Shown here one piece after another: positions 10,941 to 50,372 of a stretch of DNA of 64,000 nucleotides. The notes beneath the pieces are model-generated. The model made no database searches. It worked only from the letters and a program-made list of their open reading frames with translations, and was not told where the DNA came from. The position numbers were made by a program, and so were the translations under genes. Position 1 is the first letter of the stretch. Each line of letters begins with the position of its first letter. The DNA comes from Acetohalobium arabaticum DSM 5501 (lineage in GTDB: Bacteria; Bacillota; Halanaerobiia; Halobacteroidales; Acetohalobiaceae): contig NC_014378.1 in the NCBI RefSeq assembly GCF_000144695.1, positions 2,194,043-2,258,042 of the forward strand, given 5' to 3'.

Positions 10941-11197
10941 CAAATAGTCAACATTTCTCTGGAGCGACTCTTAAAAAGAACTTGGAGCCATGGAGGTTGT
11001 AGAATAATTTCTTTTTGTTCTTAGTCCTTTAGATTTGCTCAATACTACCATATTTAGCTCTAAAGGTTACTCCCATAGCCAGCCATTGGTTTGTATGCTG
11101 GCTATGGCGGAAAGTTCTTTTTTGAGAGTGAGTGAGACAGGACGTCGAACGAACGGCAAGCGTAAGAGATTTGTTGACTATAATCTGCAATATCATG
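10941..11197 (+). repeat. Repeat R2, copy A
   Basis: This stretch aligns with 19484-19740 (inverted) and 50112-50372 (same orientation). Shared blocks in order are GGAGCGACTCTTAA, GGAGCCATGGA with a nearby TGTAGA, a hairpin CCATAGCCAGC/GCTGGCTATGG (11073-11107) with loop core TTGGTYTGTA, GAGTGAGACAGGACGTCGAA, CGAACGGCAAGCG and TTGTTGACTATA. No protein-coding potential is shared. Copy A lies directly beyond the 3' end of the group IIC intron. The nature is unknown: a miniature mobile element or structured RNA are both possible. Confidence 0.75.
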
Positions 11198-11257
11198 AAA
11201 GAGACCATATTAGCTGCAAATAGAAAGTGACACAACATATCAATTATGGCAGATTAT

Positions 11258-13032
11258 ATAGAGTAGGACCAGCCTCACAGCTGGGACCTCTCACCAAACT
11301 GCACGTACGGTTCTCCCGTATACAGCTTTCCGTTGTCGTTGCCCCTTTCCAAGGAGTAAGTCTTCGACTTCGTGTTTCCACGAGTGTGGATTTTACTCTT
11401 GTTAAGACAATGTGGTAAGTAGTGATTTAAGTCCCTTCTGCCTTAATACGGCATTAGGGATTCTTTTATTTTGGTGCTTTATTGCTTTCTTCTTAGACTT
11501 TGTAAGTATTACAAAGTCATCAGCAAATCTAACTATTTTATATCCTCGTTTTGTCATTATCTTATCCAGTTGATGGAGATAAATGTTGGCTAGAAGAGGA
11601 GAAATTACTCCTCCCTGAGGTGTTCCCTGCTTTGATGGAATATATCCTTCTTCGGTCATGACTCCTGCAGTTAACCATGACTTTATCATTCTCAATACCC
11701 AGCCATCATTTATTCTCTCAGTAATAAATTCCATTAATAGATCTTGGTTTATATTATCAAAGTATCCTTTGATATCGGCATCTAGAACCCATTTATACCC
11801 CTCTTCTTTATACTCTTCTACTTTATTTATTGCATCCATCTGGGACCTTCCTGGACGAAATCCATAGGAACAGTCACAGAATATCTTTTCAAATATAGGC
11901 TCTATTTTCCTTTTCACTGCCGCTTGTGCTATTCTATCCTTCACAGTGGGGATGCCTAATGGACGTTCTCTGCCATCACCTTTTGGAATCATTACTCTAA
12001 GTACCGGTGATGATTCATATCTATCTTCCTGTAACTGTCTATATAATTCTCTCATATTCTGTTGATAATTATCACAGAATTCCTCTATGGTTACTCCATC
12101 TACTCCGGCACTTCCTCCATTTGCTATTACGGTCTGTGCTGCTAAATGTAGATTTACTTTTGTTACAATCTTATCTTTAAGTGTATAGTAGGTGCGTCTG
12201 GTCACTAACTCACCTATCCTTTCTTCACAACTTACCAATCTTTAGCTCCATAATCCAGTAACCTACCCCTATCCTTCATGGTATTACCGACCGCGTCTTT
12301 AGGCTCTCACCAATCGCCCCCTCCAGTATACCACTACTCAGGTTGTAGTATTTCTGATTTACTTCGTTTTCAGTTATCTATTCCTTTCCACGCTATCCAT
12401 CAGACTCATTGAACTGATCAATGTCTAAACTACTAAGACAGGTTACCACTCTTATTTCACTTCCAATTTCGACAATGTAGGTACCCTTCGCTCCAGTTGG
12501 TTTTATCCTCACCTAGATTGCTCTAAGTTCAACGGGCCAACTATCTTCACTACTATGATACCATCTGACTCCTAGCCAAGCATCATTTCGGTTTTCCCTC
12601 TTTAGGTTATACCTCCACTTATCTCTATCAGTTTTGATAGAGAGCACGCTAGGTTCTCTTCCGGTCAATTACATCACTTTACTGTCATTCCAACCCTAAA
12701 CACACCTAACTGTCTAGCATGAACACATAGAATTCAAACCAGCTATGAATTTCTCCGTTATTTAGGCGGATCACCACAGTTAAATGCCACCTCTGGTTCA
12801 CTTTTGTTTCGGACTGACAGCACGTCTCAAATTCTTCAGATTCTATCTCTCGATAGACACCCTATCACTGTTGACTTCATACACCATTCCAGTTTAGACT
12901 TAGATTGACGTTTGTTTTCTCCGTTTGCTCACCCTTTTCGTCTGTGAGTGCCACAATATCTCAACCTTATCTACCATGTTGATAGCACAGATAGGACTTT
13001 CACCTATTGATAATGTAATTTACGGAACACAC
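11258..13032 (-). mobile_element. Group II intron (IIC-like) inserted behind the glmS terminator, with internally deleted ORF
   Basis: The minus strand begins GTGTGTTCCG at 13032, matching the GUGYG intron start, 2 nt after the T-run of the glmS terminator. The 3' part has a domain V-like hairpin (about 11290-11325, containing ACCGTACGTGCAG) and a domain VI-like arm ending CTACTCTAT near 11258. Insertion immediately behind a terminator hairpin is the known habit of group IIC introns. Total length is about 1.78 kb. About 790 nt of structured 5' RNA precede the ORF. The reverse-transcriptase gene inside lacks its last third. The exact 3' boundary is inferred from the motif. Confidence 0.82.
11402..12238 (-). 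pseudogene. Truncated group II intron reverse transcriptase/maturase
   Basis: This is a 278-residue fragment of a protein normally about 420 residues. Present are the RT0-RT5 blocks: [76 protein letters not shown] and the catalytic FADD. The normal sequence ends about 20 residues after FADD and is replaced by a short unrelated tail, so the thumb and maturase X domain are missing. Sequence resumes at the intron 3' region, so a deletion of roughly 0.4 kb is likely. The protein should be inactive as a maturase. Confidence 0.85.
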
Positions 13033-13033
13033 T

Positions 13034-13070
13034 AAAAAAAGCCTTTAGTCTGTGTTCAGACCAAAGGCTT
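13034..13070 (-). terminator. Rho-independent terminator of glmS
   Basis: On the minus strand AAGCCTTTGGTCTG pairs with CAGACTAAAGGCTT (one G-T pair), with a 4-nt loop, followed by TTTTT. It lies 13 nt past the glmS stop and is the target hairpin of the intron. Confidence 0.93.
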
Positions 13071-19427: not shown

Positions 19428-19474
19428 ATATAGTTCCGGTGCTTGGTATAGCCAATATAGTTCCGGTGCTTGTT
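19428..19474. repeat. Direct repeat of a 20-bp unit
   Basis: CAATATAGTTCCGGTGCTTG occurs twice with 7 nt (GTATAGC) between. Its complement, in the form CGGAACTATATTGGCTAT, also occurs inside R2 copy C near 50324-50341. It appears to be a module attached to the R2 family. Confidence 0.75.
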
Positions 19475-19483
19475 GTTCGTTTA

Positions 19484-19740
19484 TGATGTTGCAGGATATA
19501 GTCAACAAATCTCCTACGCTTGCCGTTCGTTCGACGTCCTGTCTCACTCCCTCTCAAAGTTAGCCCTCTCGCCATAGCCAGCATACAGACCAATACTGGC
19601 TATGGGAGTGATTTATGAGCAAGATGAAATTATTAGTGCTCTAATTTAAAAGTAAGAAGCTAAAATCAGCTTTGCTACAGCCTCATGGCTTCGGGCTAAC
19701 TTAAGAGTCGCTCTAGACACATATTGACTATTTGCAATAA
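19484..19740 (-). repeat. Repeat R2, copy B (inverted)
   Basis: Reading the minus strand, this copy has the same block order as copy A: TCTAGAGCGACTCTTAA, GAAGCCATGAGGCTGTAG, the hairpin CCATAGCCAG/CTGGCTATGG (19572-19605) with loop core TTGGTCTGTATG, GAGTGAGACAGGACGTCGAA, CGAACGGCAAGCGTAGGAGA and TTGTTGACTATA. The blocks of copies A and B are nearly identical while the DNA between them varies in sequence but not in length. Confidence 0.75.
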
Positions 19741-21699: not shown

Positions 21700-21711
21700 A
21701 TAAGTTTATTT

Positions 21712-21929
21712 GACACGAAACTTGCAATAGACTGGACACAAGACTCTTAAATTAAAATCTGTTGTCTGTGTATTTTCATAATCAATTTATACTGCCTACA
21801 AATTATGTAACTTCAGTAATATATATGCATTACCTAAGCTTTTTTGACTGAAATTATCCAACTTATTATTTATAGTCTAAATTAATCTTTATTTTTAGTC
21901 TGTGTCCTGTCTGGGTTGGTCTGTGTCTA
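21712..21929 (+). repeat. Repeat R1, copy 1 (plus orientation)
   Basis: The left end GACACGAAACTTGCAATAGA (continuing with GGACACAAGACT) and the right end TTTTTAGTCTGTGTCCTGTC (continuing TGGGTTGGTCTGTGTCTA) are built from ACAC-AGACT units in opposite orientation. The core is about 140 bp of AT-rich DNA. The same two ends, in the same relative arrangement, occur at 39293-39478 (inverted) and at 45021-45165/47072-47086. No ORF lies inside. It fills the pglE-pglF gap almost exactly. Confidence 0.7.
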
Positions 21930-21930
21930 A

Positions 21931-23049
21931 TTATTTTTTATCTTTTTCGATACCCTCTTTAAGTATCTCTACTACCTGCTGGATCTCCTGTTTGGTCAAG
22001 TTATTATAAAACGGCAGAGCAATTGTTGAATCTGTTACCTGTTCTGTGATCGGGAAGTCGCCTCTCTCATAGCCGAACTCATCAACATAGAATGGCTGCA
22101 GATGAATCGGTGTAAAGTACGGCTTACACTGAATATCATTACTGCGCAGATGATCCATGACACTACTCCGATCAATCCCCTCGGCTAGCTGAATAACATA
22201 GACGAACCAGCTCATCTTAGTAGTCTCTTCAACTATCGATAATGTCGTAACCTCGTCAACATCAGCCAATAGACGGTTATACTCTTCGGCTACTTCAGCC
22301 CGCTTGGCCAAGATCTCTTCAATTCGTTCTAGCTGAGCAATTCCTACGGCACAGCTCATCTCATCGAGCCGATAGTTATAGCCTAGCCGGACATGATTCA
22401 GCCAGGAGCTGTCGGTTCCTCGACCCTGATTACGCATACTTCTACATAAATCAGCTATCTCTTCATCATCAGTAACGATCACTCCACCCTCACCGGTAGT
22501 CATCTGCTTATTGGGATAGAAAGCAAAGACGCTGGCATCAGCAAAAGTTCCTACCTTCTGGCCCTTATGTTCTGCTCCTATTGCTTCACAGGAATCCTCG
22601 ATTACCTTTAAGTCATGCTTATCTGCTATCGCCATTATCTCTGTCATATTAGCAGGTTGTCCAAAGACATCAACAGGTAAGATAGCCTTAGTTTTATCAT
22701 TTATCGCTGCTTCTATCTTATCTGGGTCGATACATAATGTCTCGGGATCGATATCGACAAAGATAGGCTCAGCATCTTCGAATAATATGCAGTTACTGGA
22801 AGAAATGAAGCTGAATGGAGTGGTAATTACTTCATCTCCTTCGCCAATCCCTAAAGCCCTAATTAATAAGTGCAGACCGCTAGTACCACTATTAACTCCT
22901 ATAGCATAATCTGTTCCTATATAGTCAGCAAACTTCTCCTCAAATTCCTCTAGCTTTGGTCCCAAGCTAAGCCAGCCTGATTCTAAGACTTCATTGACTA
23001 ATTCTTTTTCCCTTGATCCTATATCTGGTCCTGATAAGCCGATTGTCAT
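21931..23049 (-). CDS. pglE: PLP-dependent DegT/DnrJ/EryC1 aminotransferase, PglE-like
   Basis: The 372-residue sugar aminotransferase has the family motifs: GVNSGTSGLHLLIRALG, DVFGQPANM, VIEDSCEAIGAEHKG, the PLP-lysine segment AFYPNKQMTTGEGG and NYRLDEMSCAVGIAQLERI. In its position beside PglF, PglD and PglC homologues it should aminate UDP-4-keto-6-deoxy-GlcNAc at C4. Length is normal. It is separated by 3 nt from the acetyltransferase gene upstream. Start ATG 23049 follows a GGGAGGAAT site. Confidence 0.88.
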   Translation of the reverse strand: MTIGLSGPDIGSREKELVNEVLESGWLSLGPKLEEFEEKFADYIGTDYAIGVNSGTSGLHLLIRALGIGEGDEVITTPFSFISSSNCILFEDAEPIFVDIDPETLCIDPDKIEAAINDKTKAILPVDVFGQPANMTEIMAIADKHDLKVIEDSCEAIGAEHKGQKVGTFADASVFAFYPNKQMTTGEGGVIVTDDEEIADLCRSMRNQGRGTDSSWLNHVRLGYNYRLDEMSCAVGIAQLERIEEILAKRAEVAEEYNRLLADVDEVTTLSIVEETTKMSWFVYVIQLAEGIDRSSVMDHLRSNDIQCKPYFTPIHLQPFYVDEFGYERGDFPITEQVTDSTIALPFYNNLTKQEIQQVVEILKEGIEKDKK

Positions 23050-39272: not shown

Positions 39273-39292
39273 AGTTTACAGCCTCCCAGATA

Positions 39293-39478
39293 TAGACACA
39301 GACTAACACAGACAGGACACAGACTAAAAATAAATAATAAATCAAGTAATTAATATTACAATTCAAAATACATAAATTTTCATTTAAAAACCATAATTTC
39401 TCTACTTAACATTAATTTTAAATTAGTTTTAAACAATCTTATATTGTCTTGTGTATAGTCTCGTGTAAGTCTCGTGTC
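39293..39478 (-). repeat. Repeat R1, copy 2 (minus orientation)
   Basis: On the plus strand it starts with TAGACACAGACTAACACAGA (continuing CAGGACACAGACTAAAA) and ends with GTATAGTCTCGTGTAAGTCT (continuing CGTGTC). These are the two R1 ends, here reversed relative to copies 1 and 3. The core is AT-rich without ORF. It lies in the leader of wbpE, with one end 20 nt from its start codon. Confidence 0.72.
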
Positions 39479-43167: not shown

Positions 43168-44985
43168 TTACCACGGCTTAAATATAATCCCTCGCTCCTG
43201 TAATAATCCTTTAATCTTACCTGCTGCTTCCTTCTCATCCTCAAACTCCGGTATATGTAAATCATAATTAATATCCGTAGTTACATCCTCTCCTAACCAG
43301 ACTGTCTCTATCTTATCCGGATTCACAGTAGTCTTTATCAACTCTAGATCATCCTGAGTTAATTCCACAGCAGTTACAGCTAAAATAGCACCTGCGTCTA
43401 ACATAATATTGGATACTTCCGCAAGTCTCCTTAAGTGCTCTTCCCGATGATTATTCTCTTCCGTTCCTTTAATATCCGCATCTACACCATATAAGACATT
43501 ACCGATTCCTAAGAAGTAAACTATCTTGCCATCATTAAATAATCTCTTCTCTAATGCCTTAGCCGTCGGCTTCTTACCAACATCTTCTTCGCCAGTAATT
43601 AAGACTAAAGTCGACTTCTGATTATACTTTTCCGCTCGTTCATCATTAGTGATATGGCTCTTCTCCCATTTATAGTTTCTCAGCATTACCTTCTCTCGAA
43701 CCCAGCTCTGCTTATCCTCTAAGGCTTCCTGTACTATACCGCCGCCGGCAATTTCATACTCATCTACAATTACAAACCGGCTGGTCTCAGCTATTTCATT
43801 GGCTAAATCGAAGGCAATTGCTTTATCTAGCTTCAAGATACACTCAGCTACATCATGTCTCTCTATCTCATTCTTGGCTTCATTCTGGCTTAAATCCGAA
43901 GCATCAATCACTCGTTTTATCTCTTCAATTCTGGCTCTTACTTTAGTCGTACCGAGCTTCAAATGGTACTCTTTATTCTTAGTCATCTCATTTCTACCTA
44001 ACCAGAAGATATTGGCTCTAATCCGCGATGTAGCCTCCGGCTGCGGCTCATCATCAATAGTAGCTACCTCACCGCGGGTAATATAGATCTGTTCCTCCAG
44101 CGTAAAGCCCGTAGACTCTCCTACACTGGCACTAACTGTTGTTGGTTTGTTAAAGCCTTCAATCGACTTAACCGTACTCTTCTTCCCCGAAGGATAAAAC
44201 ACTACCTCATCGCCAACACTGACCTGTCCAGAGGTTATAGTCCCCGCCACAATCCGGCGGTTGTCGCCGCCTTTAGTGAACTTATAGACATCCTGAACCG
44301 GCATTCTAAAGGGTTTGTCCATCGGTAACTCTTCCGCATCAAAGCTGTCCAGCACTTCCAGCACAGTCTCATCTTCATACCACGGCGTATTATCAGATAA
44401 ACTAGCAATATTATCTCCTTCCATACCGCTAACCGGTACAAAAGTCTCTGGTTCAATATCTATCTCATGTAGAAATTTAGTGTAATCCTCTACTATTTCG
44501 TTATATACATCCTGATCATAATCAACTAAATCCATCTTATTGACCAACACAACTATCTGATCAATCCCCAACATCGATAACATATAACCGTGCCGCTTAG
44601 AATTCTCCTGGATTCCTTCATCAGCATCAATCACCAACAGAGCAGCCTCAGCTCTAGCTGCTCCTGTCACCATATTCTTCAAAAACTCAATATGTCCTGG
44701 CGCATCGAGAATAATATACTCCCGCTTATCCGTCTCAAAGAAACACCGCGCCGAATCTATAGTAATTCCCTGCGACTGTTCATCCTTTAGAGCATCCAAC
44801 AAGAAAGCATACTCAAACGGCTTAGAATTCTTACGACAAGTCTCCTTAACCTGTTCAAGCTTACCTTCAGGTAAAGAATCCGTATCAGCCAATAACCTAC
44901 CAATAATCGTACTCTTACCATGATCAACATGACCAGCAATAACTATATTCAAATCTTCCTTCTCTTCAGCTAATTCCGTAGCCAT
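43168..44985 (-). CDS. cysN: Sulfate adenylyltransferase subunit 1 (CysN) with degenerate APS-kinase-like C-terminal domain
   Basis: The 605-residue protein has an EF-Tu-like GTPase ([11 protein letters not shown] at 16-26, [21 protein letters not shown]) and two beta-barrels to about residue 430, as in CysN/NodQ. The remaining 150 residues align with APS kinase, but the P-loop reads [10 protein letters not shown] (465-474) instead of GLSGSGKST. The DGDNVR motif reads GIGNVLY, and the phosphoserine region is lost. GTP-driven ATP sulfurylase activity with CysD is expected; the kinase half is probably inactive or altered. It is separated from cysD by two introns and an R1 repeat. Confidence 0.88.
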
Positions 44986-45020: not shown

Positions 45021-45165
45021 GACACGAGACTTACACGAGACTATTCACAAGACTAATTCATAATAACATCTTTCAATATTTCATAAAACAAATAATAAAC
45101 ATAATTTTTTGCTCTCACTTATTTAACTCAATCTATATTTTTGTCTTTAGTCTGTGTCCTGTCTG
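45021..45165 (+). repeat. Repeat R1, copy 3, interrupted in its right end by intron A
   Basis: The left end GACACGAGACTTACACGAGA (continuing CTATTCACAAGACT) is the best preserved. The right end TTTAGTCTGTGTCCTGTCTG stops at 45165, where intron A begins, and continues at 47072-47086 with TGTCAGTCCATGTCT. Rejoined, it reads as an uninterrupted R1 right end comparable to copy 2. The core is AT-rich and has no ORF. Confidence 0.75.
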
Positions 45166-47071
45166 GTCGAGTAAGCGGAACCTTACGATTCCAACTCCTC
45201 TACAAAACCGTACGTGCCATATTACGGCATACGGCTTTTCACTCAATCATTTACAAAGATAACTTTTACCAATTTTCATCCTAATAGAGATTTACTTTGA
45301 TTTTAGGTTTTACTATCTGATACTTATTAAGAAAAAGTTTAAACTTATCCCAACCAAAACTTTTCTTTTGACTTCTCCTATTTAACCATTTATAGACGAG
45401 CTTTCTTATTCTACGAAAGAATCTTTGCATACTTCTCCAATTGTCTGATACAGCGTAGTAATTATATGTGCCTATAAGTTTCCGATTCAATTGCCTCATA
45501 AATTCCTTAACCGGTAAAATTCTACTGCTCCTTATCCAATCCTTGAATTGTTTAATACCTCGTCTGAACCGTTTCTTACTTGTTTTTCTTTTGAGCCGTT
45601 TTATCCCATCTTTACATTTACCCATATAATGAGTAAATCCTAAGAAATCAAATGTACCATTACTATCATCATCGTCATCTGTAAGTTTAACTATCTTGGT
45701 TTTCTCCTCCGACAATTCCAGTTCAAATTTGCTCAGTCTCCCTTGTAGGGCTTTATAGAAACGGTCAACATCTTCTTTAGTCTCAAAACAGAAAATTATA
45801 TCATCTGCATATCTCACCATGTATGCCTCCCCTTCTAAGTGTTTCCGGACTATACGATCAAACCAGAGGTCTATAACATGGTGAAGATATAAATTTGCAA
45901 GTATTGGAGAGCAGACTCCGCCCTGCGGAGTTCCCTGAGTTGTCTTCCATTTCTCTCCCTCTTCCATTATACCAGCACGAAGAAATCTAACAACCAGACG
46001 TTGTAAATTTGGATCTTGGATACGGTTATCCAGAAACTTCATCATCCACTTATGATTCACATTATCGAAAAATCCTTTAATATCTGTATCTACTACATAT
46101 TGTATCCCGGGTTTATTAATTATTTTCCCCAGTGACCTTAGTGCGTCATGACAACTACGGTTGGGACGAAATCCAAAGGAACATTCCAGAAAATCCTCCT
46201 CGTAGATAGCATTAAATATTTTCGTCAATGCTTTCTGTACTAACTTATCTTCATATGTTGGAATCCCTAAAGGCCTTTTCTTACCATTATCCTTTTCAAT
46301 ATATACCCGCTTTACTGGCTGAGGCTTGTATGCCTGCTTTTTCATTCGAGCAACCAGGTCCCTTACATTATCCCGTAAGTTTTCTTCATATTTAGATTTA
46401 ATAACTTCATCTATGCCGGCTGCCTTATTAGCATCCAGTTCATGGTGACACATAATCAGCATCTCTTCATTGATTAAGTGTATTAGAGAAGTAAACCTCT
46501 CTTTAGGTCTAGTTCTAGCTACCTCTGCCATTCTATCCAGTTTCGTTCCCATACTTTCCACCTATCTCTGTGTATAGATTTGTCTATCTCTGCGTATAGA
46601 GTATGTTTCCCTTTCAAGAACTATCTTGTGTGACCACCTTCCCATCCATGGGAGTTACCCCACTTCTACGGTACTATGTAGTCATCCGACTTCCTGTGAC
46701 ATTGGATGCTCTAACTTTATTATCACTTGATACATCCTATCTCTCTAAGTAGAAGTCACAGGACCTCCCAAGTTGATATATCATAACAATGTAATGCATG
46801 CGGTGGTCTTCGACCCCGGGGCGACTCTGTATTCTTGCTTTACGACTACAGAGTTATTGCCTTCTGTTCTGACAACAACATCAGCCTCTCCCAATGCACA
46901 CAATTTCGGAGCTCAATCTCTTCAGTTTACACTTACCGCCTACACCCTAACTGTTTACGCTTAACATTTACAGTCACCTATAAATGTCCAAAACTCGCTA
47001 CGAGTGACTTGCTAAGTCTTACTCAGTAGGGATTCCACCTACTATATGATATACCCTTTTCCTTGGCGCAC
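45166..47071 (-). mobile_element. Group II intron A, complete, between cysD and cysN
   Basis: The intron runs from GTGCGCCAAGG at 47071 to CTTACTCGAC ending at 45166 on the minus strand (1906 nt). Domain V is clear near 45195-45240 (AGCCGTATGCC, GGCACGTACGGTT), with a domain VI arm behind it. About 510 nt of structured 5' RNA precede the ORF. A TGTCAG in this 5' region (46869-46874 on the plus strand as CTGACA) can pair with the last six exon bases CTGACA, as EBS1-IBS1. It encodes an intact maturase and may be active. The flanks are the R1 right end. Confidence 0.9.
45281..46561 (-). CDS. ltrA: Group II intron reverse transcriptase/maturase (intron A)
   Basis: The 426-residue protein has the full RT palm: [101 protein letters not shown] and LGFTHYMGK. 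The thumb/maturase X region follows (RQLNRKLIGTYNYYAVSDNW, RIRKLVYKWLNRRSQ). There is no HNH endonuclease domain. It should bind and splice its intron and support target-primed reverse transcription. ATG 46561 lies within intron domain IV. Confidence 0.93.
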   Translation of the reverse strand: MESMGTKLDRMAEVARTRPKERFTSLIHLINEEMLIMCHHELDANKAAGIDEVIKSKYEENLRDNVRDLVARMKKQAYKPQPVKRVYIEKDNGKKRPLGIPTYEDKLVQKALTKIFNAIYEEDFLECSFGFRPNRSCHDALRSLGKIINKPGIQYVVDTDIKGFFDNVNHKWMMKFLDNRIQDPNLQRLVVRFLRAGIMEEGEKWKTTQGTPQGGVCSPILANLYLHHVIDLWFDRIVRKHLEGEAYMVRYADDIIFCFETKEDVDRFYKALQGRLSKFELELSEEKTKIVKLTDDDDDSNGTFDFLGFTHYMGKCKDGIKRLKRKTSKKRFRRGIKQFKDWIRSSRILPVKEFMRQLNRKLIGTYNYYAVSDNWRSMQRFFRRIRKLVYKWLNRRSQKKSFGWDKFKLFLNKYQIVKPKIKVNLY

Positions 47072-47208
47072 TGTCAGTCCATGTCTTTATTTATTTTTTC
47101 ATCTTCAATCTATCTCTTCTTTTCCATACAATTATCCAATATATTTCGAATAAATATTTCTAATTATTAATTCTCTATTTTTTGTTCTTTCAGTCTATGT
47201 CTTATCTA
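47072..47208. other. Segment between the two introns: rest of R1 copy 3 and a fourth R1 right end
   Basis: Bases 47072-47086 complete the right end of R1 copy 3. After about 100 bp of AT-rich DNA, 47185-47208 (TTCTTTCAGTCTATGTCTTA, then TCTA) is a diverged R1 right end whose continuation, TGTCAGTCTATGTCTA, lies behind intron B at 49116-49131. No gene is present. Confidence 0.7.
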
Positions 47209-49115
47209 GTCGAGTAAGCGGAACCTTACGACTCCAACTCCTCTACAAAACCGTACGTGCCATATTACGGCATACGGCTTTTCACTCAATCATTTACAAA
47301 GATAACTTTTACCTATTTTCATCCTAATAGAGATTTACTTTGATTTTAGGTTTTACTATCTGATACTTATTAAGAAAAAGTTTAAACTTATCCCAACCAA
47401 AACTTTTCTTTTGACTTCTCCTATTTAACCATTTATAGACGAGTTTTCTTATTCTTCGAAAGAATCTTTGCATACTTCTCCAATTGTCTGATACAGCGTA
47501 GTAATTATATGTGCCTATAAGTTTCCGATTCAATTGCCTCATAAATTCCTTAACCGGTAAAATTCTACTGCTCCTTATCCAATCCTTAAATTGTTTAATA
47601 CCCCGCCTGAAACGTTTCTTACTTGTCTTTCTTTTGAGCCGTTTTATCCCATCCTTACATTTACCCATATAATGAGTAAATCCCAGGAAATCAAATGTAC
47701 CATTACTATCACCATCGTCATCTGTAAGTTTAACTATCTTGGTTTTCTCCTCCGACAATTCCAGCTCAAATTTGCTCAGTCTCCCTTGTAGGGCTTTGTA
47801 GAAACGGTCAACATCTTCTTTAGTCTCAAAACAGAAAATTATATCATCTGCATATCTCACCATGTACGCCTCCCCTTCTAAATACTTCCGTACTATACGA
47901 TCAAACCAGAGATCTATAACATGGTGAAGATATAAATTTGCAAGTATTGGAGAGCAGACTCCGCCCTGCGGAGTTCCCTGAGTTGTCTTACATCTCTCGC
48001 CCTCTTCCATTATACCAGCACGGAGAAATCTAACAACCAGACGTTGTAAATTTGGGTCTTGGATACGGTTATCCAGAAACTTCATCATCCACTTATGATT
48101 CACATTATCGAAAAATCCTTTAATATCTGTATCTACTACATATTGCACCCTGGGTTTATTAATTATTCTCCCCAGTGACCTAAGTGCGTCATGACAACTA
48201 CGGTTGGGACGAAATCCAAAGGAACATTCCAGAAAATCCTCTTCATAAATAGCATTAAGTATTTTCGTCAATGATTTCTGTACTAACTTATCTTCATATG
48301 TTGGAATCCCTAGAGGCCTTTTCTTACCATTATCCTTTTCAATATATATCCTCTTTACTGGCTGAGGCTTGTATGCCTGTTTTTTTCATTCGAGCAACCA
48401 GGTCCCTTACATTATCCCGTAAGTTTTCTTCATATTTAGATTTAATAACTTCATCTATGCCGGCTGCCTTATTAGCATCCAGTTCATGGTGACACATAAT
48501 CAGCATCTCTTCATTGATTAAGTGTATTAGAGAAGTAAACCTCTCTTTAGGTCTAGTTCTAGCTACCTCTGCCATTCTATCCAGTTTCGTTCCCATACTT
48601 TCCACCTATCTCTGTGTATAGATTTGTCTATCTCTGCGTATAGAGTATGTTTCCCTTTCAAGAACTATCTTGTGTGACCACCTTCCCATCCATGGGAGTT
48701 ACCCCACTTCTACGGTACTATGTAGTCATCCGACTTCCTGTGACATTGGATGCTCTAACTTTATTATCACTTGATACATCCTATCTCTCTAAGTAGAAGT
48801 CACAGGACCTCCCAAGTTGATATATCATAACAATGTAATGCATGCGGTGGTCTTCGACCCCGGGGCGACTCTGTATTCTTGCTTTACGACTACAGAGTTA
48901 TTGCCTTCTGTTCTGACAACAACATCAGCCTCTCCCAATGCACACAATTTCGGAGCTCAATCTCTTCAGTTTACACTTACCGCCTACACCCTAACTGTTT
49001 ACGCTTAACATTTACAGTCACCTATAAATGTCCAAAACTCGCTACGAGTGACTTGCTAAGTCTTACTCAGTAGGGATTCCACCTACTATATGATATACCC
49101 TTTTCCTTGGCGCAC
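47209..49115 (-). mobile_element. Group II intron B, nearly identical to intron A, with frameshifted ORF
   Basis: The ends are the same as in intron A (GTGCGCCAAGG start at 49115, CTTACTCGAC end at 47209), total 1907 nt. The 5' RNA region appears identical to that of intron A by direct comparison; the ORF has scattered substitutions and one extra T. It lies 28 nt behind the cysD stop and in the same orientation. The exon flanks again are R1 right-end sequence but differ from those of intron A, so the pair arose by two insertions or by duplication followed by flank change. Confidence 0.9.
47324..48605 (-). pseudogene. Group II intron reverse transcriptase/maturase (intron B), frameshifted
   Basis: The gene is split into an 88-residue N-terminal piece (48339-48605) and a 315-residue C-terminal piece (47324-48271) with the palm, YADD and X domain. 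Compared with intron A a run of T near 48380 has one extra base (seven T against C plus five T), which breaks the frame after RDLVARMKK. Splicing by the intact maturase of intron A acting in trans is plausible because the RNA parts match. Confidence 0.88.
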
Positions 49116-49143
49116 TGTCAGTCTATGTCTAATCCGTTATCTT

Positions 49144-50025
49144 TTACATATAACCTTCCTTACGAAGTTCCTCGAGTCCTCCACCATCTTCCTCGTCTTG
49201 TTTCCTCCCAGCACGTTCAGCAATATTAGAAAACTTCCCACTCTCTAATTCCTTAACTATCTCCTGCGGTGTACTGGCCGTCGACTCCACCGGATCAGTA
49301 CAAGGATTACAACCTAATGAGCGGTATCTAGTACCGTCTCCCTGATCATAATACAATGAAACCATCGGAATATTCTCCCGCTCAATATAACGCCAGATAT
49401 CTACCTCTTTCCAGTCCAGCAAAGGATGAACCCGCACATGAGTCCCCGGCGCAAAGTCCGTCTTATACTGATCCCAAAACTCCGGCGGCTGATCACCGAG
49501 ATCCCAATCATTATTCGTATCCCGCGGTGAGAAGTATCTCTCCTTAGAACGGGTACCTTCCTCATCAGCTCTGACACCGACAATTACTCCAGTATACGGT
49601 TCAGGATTCTCTTCTACTTCATACTTACCGGTATTATGATTCATTCTATACCGCGGCCAGGTACCATTTAATGTCTTCTTCAATGCTTCCGACTTCAAAT
49701 TCTTACAGCACTCTATCCGCGTAGTATTGCCGTCAGGAAAAGTCTCCTTATTCTCTAATGCCGCTTCATTCTGTCCGTAGATCATATCCAACTCCCACTC
49801 TTTAGCCAATCTATCTCGATGTTCAATCATCTCTGGAATCTTATAATCAGTATCTATATGTACTAAAGGAAGTGGCACATGTCCAAAGAAAGCCTTCCTT
49901 GCCAGCCATAATAATACAGTGCTGTCCTTCCCAATCGACCATAACATCGATAAATTATTAAACTCACTATAAGCCTCTCTTATAATGTGAATACTTTTAT
50001 TCTCCAACCGATCCAAATGATCCAT
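49144..50025 (-). CDS. cysD: Sulfate adenylyltransferase subunit 2
   Basis: The 293-residue PP-loop ATPase has [20 protein letters not shown] (SxGKDS loop), [36 protein letters not shown] and [17 protein letters not shown], with [14 protein letters not shown] near the C terminus. All are typical of CysD rather than PAPS reductase. With CysN it makes APS from sulfate and ATP. Its natural partner cysN lies 4.2 kb downstream, beyond two introns. Start ATG 50025 follows GGGAGGAAG. Confidence 0.95.
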
Positions 50026-50111: not shown

Positions 50112-50372
50112 ATTCCAGAGCGACTCTTAAAACTGGTCTGGAGCCATGGAAGTCTGTAGATCATTAATTTTTGCTCCTAGCCTTGTCAATTAGAGCAATA
50201 ATACTATCTTCTTGCTCCATAAACTTCTCATCACATAGCCAGCATTGGTCTGTATGCTGGCTAGGGCGGAAGACCAGTTTTTGACAGTGAGCGAAACAGG
50301 ACGTTGAGCGAACGACAAGCGGCGGAACTATATTGGCTATGCTAAGCAATAGCAAGCGGAGGAGATATATTA
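50112..50372 (+). repeat. Repeat R2, copy C
   Basis: The block order equals copy A: CCAGAGCGACTCTTAAAA, GGAGCCATGGAAGTCTGTAG, hairpin CATAGCCAGCA/TGCTGGCTA (50234-50263) with loop TTGGTCTGTA, AGTGAGCGAAACAGGACGTT and GAGCGAACGACAAGCGG. A 36-nt insertion (CGGAACTATATTGGCTATGC and onward) duplicates a CAAGCGG boundary and matches the tandem repeat at 19428. It fills the gap between cysD and the upstream sugar transferase gene. Confidence 0.72.

Follow-up and report, generated by a model that had tools for sequence, protein, structure and literature searches.

Within the window, the 64,000-nt stretch of the Acetohalobium arabaticum DSM 5501 genome analysed here, a pair of group II introns occupies the spacer between cysD and cysN; they share the minus strand and the transcriptional sense of these two genes, and each is inserted into an arm of a dispersed intergenic inverted repeat (R1). 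We consider it likely that an intron of IIB-like type, with guides matching the R1 arm, separately entered two adjacent R1 arms of this spacer. The initial annotation had described two introns at the same point of R1, in the same orientation and with different flanks, and this was confirmed to the base. In the direction of transcription the order is cysD, 28 nt (counted from the stop codon), intron 1, 137 nt, intron 2, 180 nt (up to the start codon) and cysN (Table 1).

Both introns run GTGCGCCAAGG...CTTACTCGAC, and their ribozyme ends, GTGCG...AC, match the group II rule (5' GUGYG, 3' AY). The insertion point is the same in both R1 arms, GACAYRGACTGACA^YAGAY, with plus-strand junctions that read ...TCTA^TGTCAGTC and ...TCTG^TGTCAGTC, and the outer flanks of the two introns differ. 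Using Rfam, we obtained matches above the gathering score to the D1–D4 model RF02005 (149.4 bits in each copy) and the D5–D6 model RF00029 (49.3 and 48.5 bits). Together the introns contribute 3813 nt, and no third copy was found in a search of the whole genome (2,469,596 bp). The minus strand also carries, at window positions 11258-13050, a further group II intron that is unrelated to the pair and whose reading frame is truncated; a terminator-like hairpin with CAGACTAAAG in its stem lies immediately 5' of it.

Table 1. Features of the cysD–cysN region and R1 copies in the window
Feature	Position	Strand	Details
cysD	49144-50025	-	NF003587, 352 bits
5' exon of intron 1	49116..49129	-	R1 arm GACATAGACTGACA (IBS2 + IBS1)
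Intron 1, cysD-proximal	49115..47209	-	1907 nt; Rfam RF02005 + RF00029; ends from comparison of the copies
3' exon of intron 1	47192..47208	-	Remainder of same R1 arm, TAGATAAGACATAGACT
5' exon of intron 2	47072..47085	-	R1 arm GACATGGACTGACA (IBS2 + IBS1)
Intron 2, cysN-proximal, protein intact	47071..45166	-	1906 nt; Rfam RF02005 + RF00029; ends from comparison of the copies
Reverse transcriptase/maturase of intron 2	45281..46561	-	426 aa, YADD motif; TIGR04416, 388 bits
3' exon of intron 2	45149..45165	-	Remainder of same R1 arm, CAGACAGGACACAGACT
Other arm of intron 2's R1, GACACGAGACTTACACGAGACTATTCACAAGACT	45021..45054	+	97% match to R1 39446-39478
cysN with APS-kinase domain	43168-44985	-	TIGR02034, 361 bits; APS_kinase match
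R1 copy without intron	39290..39478	-	
R1 copy without intron	21709..21944	+	

The protein of intron 2 scores well above the TIGR04416 cut-off of 300 bits and also matches RVT_1 and, below threshold, GIIM; a domain-model search of its 426 aa returned no match to an endonuclease domain, and its solved relatives are all distant. The maturase frame is intact in copy 2 only, as that of copy 1 is shifted at a run of seven A (AAAAAAAC versus AAAAAGC in copy 2). Given that six A instead of seven would leave the frame open and the change silent, and that homopolymer errors are typical of 454 data, this frameshift may be a sequencing error. With regard to class, we found the 6-bp IBS1–EBS1 pairing together with the IBS2–EBS2 pairing that defines subgroup IIB, a combination that also rules out subgroup IIC. 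Subgroup IIA was rejected by eye, the base 5' of EBS1 (delta) being T and the 3' exons beginning with T and C. Judged by these features, the pair represents an endonuclease-less, IIB-like group II intron that is presumably mobile.

In R1 itself, an AT-rich centre that varies in length separates the arm GACACAGACTnnCnCAGACnnnACACAGACT from the opposite arm AGTCTnGTGTAnAGTCTnGTGTnAGTCTnGTGTC. The arms are inverted copies of a ~10-base unit, the units of one side each being longer by one base, and complete copies fold as a bulged hairpin (z -4.9 and -4.4 against shuffled sequence for two copies). About six places in the A. arabaticum genome (G000) carry R1 or one R1 arm. Additionally, arms were detected in a congener (G001) and in two members of the same family (G003 and G004), with single arms in G008 and G011; they were absent from a further family member (G002) and from the other eleven genomes of the order and class that were searched, and viral contigs contained no R1 patterns. 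In terms of MITE features, R1 has clear inverted ends and, by eye, no clear target-site duplication. A second dispersed repeat of ~110 bp, up to 91% alike and present in both orientations, occurs at window positions 11084-11202, 19440-19607 and 50231-50354.

We also considered R1 as an integron attC site, and rejected this because attC requires a RYYYAAC...GTTRRRY core, whilst R1 ends are GACAC...GTGTC; moreover, a model of the attC-like repeat of another genome, G030, matched no R1 locus. In G004 (C26:40183-41615), one R1 copy lies ~600 bp from an integron-integrase-like tyrosine recombinase, which scores 144 bits and so falls short of the curated cut-off. Hits to the integron integrase model TIGR02249, all of them below its cut-off, were obtained in every genome as well as in each of the 14 controls, and are uninformative alone.

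When relatives were searched for empty R1 sites, the site of intron 2 was found unfilled in the congener G001. The cysN-proximal R1 of G001 aligns with the A. arabaticum spacer (introns removed) through the intron 2 insertion point and into cysN, the junction reading GACTATCA^CAGACAG against GACTGACA^CAGACAG. By this alignment, which covers the arm of intron 2 alone, G001 keeps the orthologue of the R1 occupied by intron 2, with the intron absent. Toward cysD, the G001 spacer contains MNT/HEPN-like gene pairs (read from translations) and further R1 sequence; on contig C2 two such pairs are seen with R1 copies between them, which gives the spacer the look of a hotspot for insertion, with contents resembling cassettes. 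The 137-nt stretch between the A. arabaticum introns shows a resemblance to the final part of the second gene pair of G001, and so this pair was probably lost in A. arabaticum. In G003 and at the second cysD locus of G001, the last ~40 nt of cysD are repeated 3' of the gene, as if the cysD end had been used by an element as an attachment site.

Guide pairing likewise points to the R1 arm as the target. EBS1 (TGTCAG) pairs 6/6 with IBS1 (CTGACA), and EBS2 (TGTGT) pairs 5/5 with IBS2, counting the G-U pairs, of which copy 1 has one and copy 2 has two. EBS2 is also fully complementary to the R1 consensus ACACA, a match that is partly by construction, as the R1 search pattern itself fixed ACACA. 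The EBS1 loop covaries with its target across the introns of A. arabaticum, G030, G042, G052 and G051, and, with the exception of G042, these relatives (G030, G052 and G051) have a fitting EBS2 at the corresponding position. Exact IBS1 is found in 3 of the 26 R1 arms of the family, and two more fit with one G-U. Nine places in the A. arabaticum genome fit the guides, namely the two filled R1 arms and seven empty places outside R1; a reversed control pattern also gives nine. Both of the R1 arms in this genome that match the guides in full are filled, in numbers too small for statistics. With two events, and with seven guide-fitting non-R1 places empty, a preference for R1 beyond the guide is not demonstrable.

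The proposal in the initial annotation that R1 arms act as intron landing sites is, to the extent that sequence can tell, well supported, by the empty G001 site, by guide pairing and by a second, distant lineage in the R1 arms of another genus. G004 has a distinct intron of 1940 nt, with a protein 33% identical to that of the A. arabaticum intron, as well as a 531-nt form without most of the reading frame. The 5' ends of both forms follow R1 arms ending AGTCTTG and their 3' ends are followed by TGTCAAA, the remainder of the same arm; at both sites this is the opposite arm from that used in A. arabaticum. A D5–D6 match of 50.5 bits supports group II identity, and a candidate EBS1 (CAAGAC) occurs once in the first 400 nt. 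One copy seems to lie between cysD and cysN, as judged from matching ends that would join contigs C34 and C45; the assembly is in contigs, and the two copies found could be more.

A sister lineage in G030 (protein 72% identical) is present in many copies. Flanks were read for 11 of these, of which 8 lie in attC-like repeats and 3 elsewhere, and about 30 such repeats occur within the 100 kb examined. This agrees with the published association of IIB introns with integrons in halophiles (PMC7923331). At one G030 locus (L060 1008-3484) a full-length intron runs straight into a short one of its own kind, which gives the impression of a renewed insertion at the same 5' exon.

A comparison of the two A. 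arabaticum copies revealed 41 differing alignment positions (~98% identity), distributed as a mosaic: the first 729 nt are identical and most of the later differences fall in the reading frame. If differences were spread evenly, the chance of a difference-free 729 nt would be ~4e-9 for the whole intron, and ~7e-4 when calculated within the reading frame alone. The reading-frame changes comprise 27 synonymous and 11 non-synonymous ones, as might be expected if the protein of one or both copies is under selection. The mosaic is most simply read as gene conversion affecting the 5' part, with a finishing artefact as an alternative that may have produced the identical 729 nt. With regard to the initial annotation's suggestion that recombination between the copies could remove or add DNA, the mosaic fits gene conversion between them. 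Furthermore, the 31-nt R1 arms around the introns are clearly less alike than the introns, as would be expected if old arms were invaded later.

Separate entry into two arms, which we favour, draws on the exact ends, the empty orthologous site of intron 2, guide pairing, the covariation of EBS1 with its target and the occurrence of two lineages on R1. The introns would be transcribed in sense with the operon and spliced by the copy 2 maturase, which would also act on copy 1 in trans should the frameshift be genuine. R1 arms would next be selected by EBS2–IBS2 and EBS1–IBS1 pairing and entered through reverse splicing, with reverse transcription as the last step. Two such events, and a later gene conversion rendering the 5' parts identical, would lead to the present arrangement. 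Against this, both introns share one spacer, and the two insertions may thus depend on each other. The same arrangement could have arisen from one insertion, followed by local duplication of the intron with its R1 arm through unequal exchange between neighbouring arms, and later divergence, as the tandem, same-orientation layout, the 98% identity and the lack of a copy elsewhere in the genome would suggest. A recent duplication, however, would bring matching flanks, and the greater difference between the flanking arms, together with the differing sequence beyond them, therefore counts against it; gene conversion confined to the introns could mask this mismatch, and we regard duplication as unlikely, though not negligible. 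Least probable of all is that the tandem is an artefact of assembly. The genome was derived from 454/Illumina data with repeat-finishing software (PMC3035264), and the identical first 729 nt would be in keeping with such an origin, but the 41 differences (27 of them synonymous in the reading frame), the differing R1 arms, the orthologous empty R1 of the congener and the 10-kb paired-end library used in finishing (PMC3035264), which can span the pair, make an assembly duplication unlikely.

Whether the introns regulate CysN, with unspliced RNA or the polarity of 3.8 kb of intron lowering its level and splicing raising it, was also considered, the initial annotation having suggested that splicing could decide the CysN level. 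In favour of such a role are the sense orientation of the introns with both genes and the fact that no terminator-like site was found between cysD and cysN on the minus strand; across the region, promoter-like and terminator-like sites are no more numerous than in shuffled sequence. Neither reading frame, however, is interrupted by the introns, and the ribosome-binding region of cysN lies 3' of them, such that unspliced RNA would keep cysD and cysN intact, and a second cysD–cysN locus in the same genome (C1:2061286-2062429; CysD 99% identical) is free of introns, its spacer containing a single R1 arm. Control of CysN by splicing is therefore not supported and, as the spacer is also freely variable in relatives, we hold regulation to be very improbable, a polarity effect on CysN being possible. 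In our best reading the pair is a selfish, guide-directed intron maintained in non-coding repeat arms of the spacer, more a tolerated parasite than a switch for CysN. Sequence similar to the ~110-bp repeat is also present in the spacer of the intron-free locus.

Mobile group II introns on multi-copy repeats are already known as a kind. RmInt1 of Sinorhizobium is, like the present intron, endonuclease-less and lives by homing to a multi-copy repeat; its target differs from the small hairpin repeat R1 in being an insertion sequence with a transposase. Closer in setting are the group IIB introns UHB.I2, H.ha.F1 and H.ha.F2, known from integrons and attC clusters of halophiles (PMC7923331), which resemble the present case in being endonuclease-less and IIB-type, in their use of small hairpin-forming repeats, in their halophilic hosts and in lying near toxin-antitoxin genes. 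Unlike their targets, R1 is devoid of the attC core sites, and its copies are scattered one by one between genes rather than lined up in a cassette array. Group IIC and IIC-attC introns, which target terminators or attC sites, share with this intron the use of hairpin-forming, non-coding, multi-copy targets, but have an IBS1 of 3–4 bp and no IBS2 (PMC7923331), in contrast to the 6-bp IBS1 here and the EBS2–IBS2 pairing found in most of the lineage. In the open-access literature, to which our search was confined, we found no paper that deals with group II introns of Acetohalobium or Halanaerobiales, or with such introns inside small intergenic repeats of bacteria; within that literature, neither R1 nor its use by two lineages of introns appears to have been described.

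The presence of two lineages in opposite R1 arms, and even in the same cysD–cysN spacer of two genera, suggests convergence. There is about an even chance, in our estimation, that R1 of the Halobacteroidaceae is a shared platform on which distantly related intron lineages converged, their guides fitted to different arms. If true, R1 would play for IIB-like introns the part that terminators and attC sites play for IIC introns. Endonuclease-less introns need harmless and plentiful targets, and R1, as a multi-copy, hairpin-forming repeat outside coding sequence, is of this sort. Arms with different IBS1 sequences offer a natural series for tests of guide specificity, and small intergenic repeats would in this manner be tied, testably, to the survival of group II introns.
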